Source: Candidatus Bathyarchaeota archaeon | GTDB taxonomy: Archaea > Thermoproteota > Bathyarchaeia > TCS64 | Direction: 5' to 3' | Assembly (NCBI GenBank): GCA_018396865.1 | Contig: JAGTRB010000017.1 | Location: forward strand, 1 to 34,986 | Length of the DNA stretch: 34,986 nucleotides | Shown: piece by piece, positions 1,293 to 32,364 of the stretch | How the letters are laid out: each line of letters opens with the position of its first letter | How positions within the stretch are numbered: position 1 is the stretch's first letter | The notes under the pieces: generated by a model | Databases searched by the model: none | What the model was told of the DNA's origin: nothing | What the model saw: only the letters and a program-made list of their open reading frames with translations | Program-made: the position numbers and the translations under genes

Positions 1293-1299
1293 GATCTAA

Positions 1300-1391
1300 C
1301 GGGCCTGAGGGGATTTGAACCCCTGACCCCCGGGTATCCTCGACTTCACGTCTTAAAAGCCCGGCGCTCTACCTTGCTGAGCTACAGGCCC
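1300..1391 (-). tRNA. trnK-UUU: tRNA-Lys(UUU) with an 18-nt intron
   Basis: The minus strand folds as a full cloverleaf. The acceptor is GGGCCTG/CAGGCCC with discriminator G, the D stem GCTC/GAGC, the anticodon stem CCGGG/CCCGG, and the T arm AGGGG-TTCAAAT-CCCCT. The anticodon loop CTTTTAA (anticodon UUU) is interrupted between positions 37 and 38 by 18 nt (1337-1354 or nearby). The insert forms a bulge-helix-bulge: loop bases CUUU pair with GAGG, and a small GAC/GUC hairpin closes the intron. The spliced length is 74 nt. CCA is not encoded; GTTAG follows. TATA-like sequence lies about 25-35 bases upstream (1410-1427). The gene is just upstream of the HTH-PRT regulator. Confidence 0.93.
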
Positions 1392-1510
1392 AACATAATT
1401 CAATAAACCTTTAAAGATTTAAAAGGTTTCGGACCATGGTTCGAGGACAAATTAACAAAACGATTCCCAGGGTAGTTAAAATGAGAATAGGTCAGATCCC
1501 CCCTGGAAAA

Positions 1511-1524
1511 GCCTTTTAAAAGGC
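1511..1524. promoter_or_regulatory. Perfect 14-bp palindrome with TATA-like core upstream of tRNA-Gly
   Basis: The sequence gccttttaaaaggc is a perfect palindrome with a TTTTAAAA core. Its centre is about 31 bases before the first GCGGCCG (1549) and 48 before the second (1566). A TATA box here would start transcription near 1543, just before the first copy. A second A/T run (gatattttt, about 1532-1540) would instead start near 1563, just before the second copy. Which one is used decides where the tRNA-Gly precursor begins. Confidence 0.45.
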
Positions 1525-1565
1525 TGAACCGAGATATTTTTAGGCCGTGCGGCCGAAGCTCTTCG

Positions 1566-1672
1566 GCGGCCGTAGGCGAAGCCTCGGCGGAGTCCAGCCT
1601 GGTAAGATTTCAGCCCCCCAAGATCCTCGGGGAGAGCTGAAGACCCGGGTTCAAATCCCGGCGGCCGCACCA
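1566..1672 (+). tRNA. trnG-CCC: tRNA-Gly(CCC) with anticodon-loop intron and an extra insert near position 8/9
   Basis: The cloverleaf has acceptor GCGGCCG (1566-1572)/CGGCCGC (1662-1668), discriminator A1669 and encoded CCA (1670-1672). The anticodon stem is TCAGC/GCTGA and the T arm CCGGG-TTCAAAT-CCCGG. The anticodon loop is interrupted after position 37 by 14 nt (1621-1634). The intron has an ideal bulge-helix-bulge core, with loop bases 32-35 CCCC pairing with GGGG. The spliced loop CCCCCAA gives anticodon CCC with an unusual C33. A second insert of about 17 nt (about 1574-1590) separates T8 from A9-GTCC and contains hairpin AGGC-GAA-GCCT; its excision signal is not canonical. An identical GCGGCCG at 1549-1555 is an alternative 5' end. 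Glycine identity also fits the acceptor sequence and discriminator A. Confidence 0.8.
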
Positions 1673-32258: not shown

Positions 32259-32364
32259 GGGGCCGTGGTCCAGCTTGGTCTAAGATTCGCGCCTGGGGAG
32301 CGCTCAAAGGCGGGAGCGCACAGTTCGTGCGAGGTCGTGGGTTCAAATCCCACCGGCCCCACCA
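32259..32364 (+). tRNA. trnP-GGG: tRNA-Pro(GGG) with a 27-nt intron
   Basis: Acceptor GGGGCCG (32259-32265)/CGGCCCC (32354-32360), discriminator A32361 and encoded CCA (32362-32364). The D arm is GTCC/AGAT with one mismatch, the same D stem as tRNA-Gly above. The anticodon stem is CGCGC/GTGCG. Loop bases CTGGGG (anticodon GGG) are followed by a 27-nt intron (32299-32325), then C38. In the intron GCGCTC/GAGCGC forms a perfect 6-bp hairpin stem, and loop bases CUGG face ACAG for the central helix with one mismatch. The T arm is GTGGG-TTCAAAT-CCCAC. The canonical 37/38 position makes it a substrate of the EndA encoded here. Confidence 0.92.

Follow-up and report, generated by a model that had tools for sequence, protein, structure and literature searches.

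Noncanonical introns of archaeal tRNA genes are short insertions that may accompany an intron at position 37/38, and are recognised by the splicing endonuclease EndA through a bulge-helix-bulge (BHB) motif made of a 3-nt bulge, a 4-bp helix and a second 3-nt bulge. The noncanonical positions named in the sections of a review available to us run from 20/21 to 59/60 and include 3/4, in a list that ends in 'etc.' (PMC4090602). The split tRNAs of Nanoarchaeum and Caldivirga carry complementary extra leaders that keep their exons together for BHB splicing (PMC4090602, PMC4033280), circularly permuted tRNAs combine an unusual processing order with BHB motifs, and some bacterial pre-tRNA leaders, in the context of RNase P, pair with the 3′ RCCA of the tRNA and extend an intact stem by a base or two (PMC9433436).

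The tRNA-Gly(CCC) gene analysed here lies in a window of 34,986 nucleotides (the whole stretch of DNA that was studied) from a Candidatus Bathyarchaeota archaeon, and resembles each of these systems in part (Table 1). Judging from its sequence, its intron at 10/11 belongs to a known kind, the archaeal noncanonical BHB introns. However, 10/11 is not among the positions named in those sections of the review, whose list is open-ended, and the intron is almost universally accompanied by a leader copy of the acceptor strand, a companion that was not found described in the literature searched. By analogy, split-tRNA leaders are the nearest functional parallel to this copy, but here the exons are contiguous within 1566-1672, a single transcript is expected, and the leader would pair with an exon (the 3′ strand of the acceptor) instead of an intron-like trailer. 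Unlike in the bacterial leaders, a strand of 7-8 bp would replace the 5′ strand, and unlike in permuted tRNAs, the exons follow the normal order.

Table 1. Features of the tRNA-Gly(CCC) locus and of the EndA gene in the window.
Feature	Position	Strand	Evidence or remark
Probable TATA box (TTTTAAAA)	1514..1521	+	predicted; its centre precedes the leader copy by 31 nt
Leader copy of the acceptor 5′ strand (U + GCGGCCG), proposed surrogate	1548..1555	+	8 contiguous pairs with positions 66-73 (1662-1669)
Spacer, copy to mature 5′ end	1556..1565	+	3-18 nt across 40 genes
Exon 1, positions 1-10 (GCGGCCG U A G)	1566..1575	+	full pairing with 1662-1668; U8 and G10 present
Noncanonical intron at 10/11, 17 nt	1576..1592	+	BHB; absent from several orthologues
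Exon 2, positions 11-37, anticodon CCC, C33	1593..1620	+	sequence
Canonical intron at 37/38, 14 nt	1621..1634	+	BHB CCCC/GGGG; relatives have a 14-17 nt intron at this site
Exon 3, positions 38-73 and encoded CCA	1635..1672	+	sequence
EndA, catalytic-type tRNA splicing endonuclease subunit, 183 aa	17649..18200	+	PF01974, 104.7 bits; Y...H...K motif

A previous sequence-only reading of the locus had noticed the 14-nt intron in the anticodon loop and the two occurrences of GCGGCCG (1549-1555 and 1566-1572, offset by 17 bases), both of which stand. The length it gave for a second, 5′ insert, 17 nt, also holds, but not its placement at 1574-1590, the best splice frame being the one that follows G10. 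Similarly, a hairpin noted over the gap, GCCGAA/TTCGGC, does exist (1552-1557/1562-1567), but the spacer that it uses measures anything from 3 to 18 nt among relatives; the hairpin is therefore not what is conserved, and it was dropped as a functional element. Exon 3 contains the T arm CCGGG/CCCGG, the acceptor 3′ strand CGGCCGC (1662-1668), A73 (1669) and CCA (1670-1672). The unusual C33 is real, and recurs in tRNA-Gly(CCC) genes of the same order that have no intron (L181, L183, L050), which makes it a lineage trait; its site lies at 1615-1620, and other Bathyarchaeia carry U33. A covariance-model match covers the gene, which ARAGORN misses, at 1566-1669. Two other tRNA-like genes are present in the window: a divergent neighbour of the Gly gene at 1299-1392 (- strand), called tRNA-Stop(tta) by ARAGORN, which resembles a tRNA with a 37/38 intron, and an intron-bearing gene at 32259-32361 (+ strand) with the acceptor GGGGCCG and no 10/11 intron.

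The suspicion that the 5′ insert is a noncanonical intron is borne out by a perfect 3-4-3 BHB and by orthologues that lack it. The bulges AG-G and AG-U (the hyphen marking the splice site) flank a central helix CCGU (1570-1573)/GCGG (1587-1590), with GG (1568-1569)/CC (1594-1595) as the outer helix and CGA (1577-1579)/UCG (1584-1586) as the inner stem of the intron. An intron at 8/9 or 9/10 was discarded, leaving position 10 variable or spoiling the register of the BHB. Inserts of 16-17 nt between GCGGCCGTRG and TCC were found in the same genus (G001, G002), in the same family (G004, G005, G009, G013, G017) and in a second family (G027), and the direct sequence GCGGCCGTRG-TCC in G010, G011, G014, G021 and others; G011 lacks the insert although it is congeneric with G005, which has it. 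The orthologue comparison proposed in the earlier reading thus shows that the insert is missing from some tRNA-Gly genes and that its removal restores a normal tRNA, with TRG-TCC given back as in the intronless orthologues.

A DNA pattern that did not require the leader, scanned over 257 Bathyarchaeia genomes, detected Gly genes with the 10/11 intron in four families and Trp genes in three. A covariance model (R1) added tRNA-Glu genes; this model also matches ordinary tRNAs, and therefore mainly its long matches were pursued. Two more families, outside the class, came from a Glu pattern run on 398 genomes of the phylum; in the phylum sample, the Gly/Trp pattern gave nothing beyond Bathyarchaeia. 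An exact-pattern contig scan returned mostly chance bacterial matches, the real ones being named Bathyarchaeota (one as uncultured archaeon). One pattern match (L146, in G042), which has neither a 10/11 intron nor a copy, was left out. The resulting set comprises 40 distinct genes for Gly, Trp and Glu in 12 families, two of them outside Bathyarchaeia. The central BHB helix shows 4/4 pairs in 40/40 genes, most of which were found with patterns requiring part of it, so the independent test is the inner stem, which no pattern demanded and whose variants among relatives are CGA/UCG, CGC/GCG, CGU/ACG and CAC/GUG. Among 34 distinct rows, changes on both sides occur at all three of its pairs, and the central helix has no unpaired cell. 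The tRNA-Trp genes L134, L135, L137, L138 and L139 (three families) seem to carry up to five introns and L136 four, at 10/11, in the anticodon stem, at 37/38 with a box C/D-like sequence, in the variable loop and in the T loop; the tRNAscan-SE 2.0 paper gives up to three for archaeal tRNAs. Two tRNA-Gly(GCC) genes (L148 in G044 and L059 in G053) combine the 10/11 intron with an extra insert of ~24 nt near the variable loop.

The idea of an unusual leader also survives, in that the copy goes with the 10/11 intron. A leader segment with at least 7 contiguous pairs to the gene's own 3′ acceptor strand was found in 39/40 genes with the intron vs 1/96 controls, some of which have 37/38 introns but lack a copy (Fisher p = 8e-32, with genes treated as independent despite their relatedness). 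The duplication does not, therefore, arise by chance. The number of pairs between leader and positions 66-73 is 8 in 23 genes, 7 in 16 and 6 in one. The only control reaching 7 pairs (L011) does so at a site that precedes the mature 5′ end by at least 37 nt, and among the 36 Gly genes with the acceptor GCGGCCG and no 10/11 intron none reaches 7 or exceeds 5. Genes within a family are not independent; counted per isotype and family, all 13 units have the copy. Shuffled leaders attain 7 pairs in 2.9% of cases, and leaders set against an acceptor of the wrong isotype show at least 7 in 2/80 tests. The reciprocal search, restricted to exact copies in the 257 genomes, yielded a single gene with a copy and no 10/11 intron, a tRNA-Glu (L240, G036:C11:138940-139014). 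Its family relatives retain the intron, so that a relic of recent intron loss is the likely explanation.

The pattern of changes in the copy points to pairing rather than to copying. The copy follows the isotype (GCGGYYG-type for Gly, GGGGYYG for Trp, GCUCCG or wobble forms for Glu), and between isotypes G-C, C-G and U-A replace one another in the pairing. The copies differ from their acceptor strands by 25 substitutions, of which 14 are C to U changes that keep the pairing with G and 10 of the other 11 fall at the terminal position 7. Moreover, in 34/40 genes a U precedes the copy, opposite A73, whereas mostly G stands before the true 5′ end; this U may owe something to a preference of initiators for T before G. 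The leader, central and inner helices jointly show a covariation score of 0.554 vs a shuffled mean of 0.159, with slid partners at 0.155 or less. Pairing of the leader copy with the 3′ acceptor strand is therefore strongly supported at the level of sequence. Pairing with the second copy was considered too and rejected, as it fits the Gly acceptor, where GGCC is palindromic, but not Glu.

With regard to transcription, the 40 genes have an A+T peak, of the kind typical of TATA boxes, at 27-35 nt before the copy. Control tRNAs have theirs at this distance from the mature 5′ end, which indicates that the copy is probably transcribed and close to the 5′ end of the transcript. Two TATA elements had been proposed, and it is the upstream one (Table 1) that fits the class-wide spacing.

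The central BHB helix takes up positions 5-8 of the acceptor strand, so that acceptor stem and splice motif are mutually exclusive. Forced structures, folded at 37 C and without modifications, gave mean energies of -53.2 kcal/mol for the native acceptor, -47.9 for the BHB with the copy unpaired and -58.1 for the BHB with the leader paired. Without the copy, the native acceptor fold beats the BHB in 31/40 genes, whereas with it the BHB plus leader beats the native fold in 36/40. In partition functions, the native acceptor is dominant in 37/40 genes if the leader is removed, in 24/40 if the copy is scrambled and in 1/40 if the leader is left as it is, and the central BHB helix exceeds a probability of 0.5 in 2, 12 and 21 of the 40, respectively. 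In the window gene, 3.6 kcal/mol separate the BHB plus leader state from the lower, unconstrained minimum, and the central helix reaches a probability of about 0.01; here the strand is thus freed by the leader, but the BHB is not the lowest state in the model. After splicing, the secondary-structure model still favours leader pairing in 37/40 genes, hence strand exchange would need tertiary folding or proteins.

Altogether, we consider it probable that the copy acts as a surrogate acceptor strand beside a tRNA-Gly(CCC) gene whose first intron follows position 10. As copy and 10/11 intron occur together in three different tRNAs, the copy probably keeps the RNA together during excision. In the primary transcript, the leader copy would pair with the 3′ acceptor strand, and the true 5′ strand (positions 3-8) would then be free for the BHB. 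The same pairing would tether the 10-nt exon 1, otherwise held mainly by the intron under removal, until cutting by EndA and joining by a ligase. After splicing, the true strand would displace the copy in the acceptor stem and, finally, RNase P would trim the leader. The presumed substrate shares the window with a gene for a catalytic-type EndA, and a second, degenerate paralogue (contig C4, 64.4 bits) is present in the genome. Two unlike paralogues also make up the broad-specificity (alpha-beta)2 enzyme, and the subunits encoded here would assemble in the same way; this form of EndA, which tolerates relaxed motifs, is the usual one in the TACK group (PMC7714728).

Among the other explanations, it is possible, if unlikely, that the copy is not a splicing aid and mainly blocks RNase P, as well as 3′ processing, until the intron is gone. 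Pairing of the 3′ RCCA by a leader inhibits bacterial RNase P (PMC9433436) and A73 is paired with the copy in those 34 of 40 genes, but such timing alone leaves unexplained why the copy is confined to introns that draw the acceptor strand into their BHB, the controls with 37/38 introns lacking it. Both roles are compatible. Much less probable is an element acting on the DNA (promoter or initiator) or a neutral partial duplication, such as a scar of insertion at the tRNA gene: the near-fixed distance of the copy from the TATA box and the initiator-like T before G would agree with this, yet the copy follows the acceptor sequence of each isotype, keeps its pairing through wobble and does not occur in intronless tRNAs whose promoters are similarly spaced. 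The neutral tandem duplication suggested in the sequence-only reading is likewise unsupported, since three isotypes and 12 families share the copy, which pairs through wobble and reaches U:A73. We give even less credit to the first copy as the mature acceptor strand, with everything up to position 8 removed; it does pair with the 3′ strand in the precursor fold, but many first copies have wobbles or mismatches where the second is perfectly paired, U8-R9-G10 follows the second copy only, and inspection by hand revealed no BHB around the first. The least credible explanation is a pseudogene: the general Rfam tRNA model gives the gene only 26.5 bits, in a match that begins within the intron, but the 42 tRNA matches of the genome include no second tRNA-Gly(CCC), the acceptor, anticodon and T stems are fully paired, and the gene is conserved across genus, family and order with compensatory changes.

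The surrogate acceptor strand has no counterpart in the sections consulted of the literature searched (PMC4090602, PMC8450103, PMC3218864, PMC4033280, PMC3293823, PMC12397907), and the evidence leans towards a previously undescribed class of cis-acting RNA element that would enable acceptor-consuming introns through an obligatory strand exchange, in tRNAs for Gly, Trp and Glu of Bathyarchaeia and at least two families outside. If so, similar elements are predicted for every tRNA with an intron no more than about 13 nt from its 5′ end, and the copy offers tRNA gene finders a usable signal for poorly scored genes. An ordered pathway is implied, in which splicing would be followed by strand exchange and this by the RNase P cut, and leaders would gain a structural job in splicing. 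The leader copy suggests a route by which introns may enter the one part of the tRNA in which splicing is incompatible with the acceptor stem.
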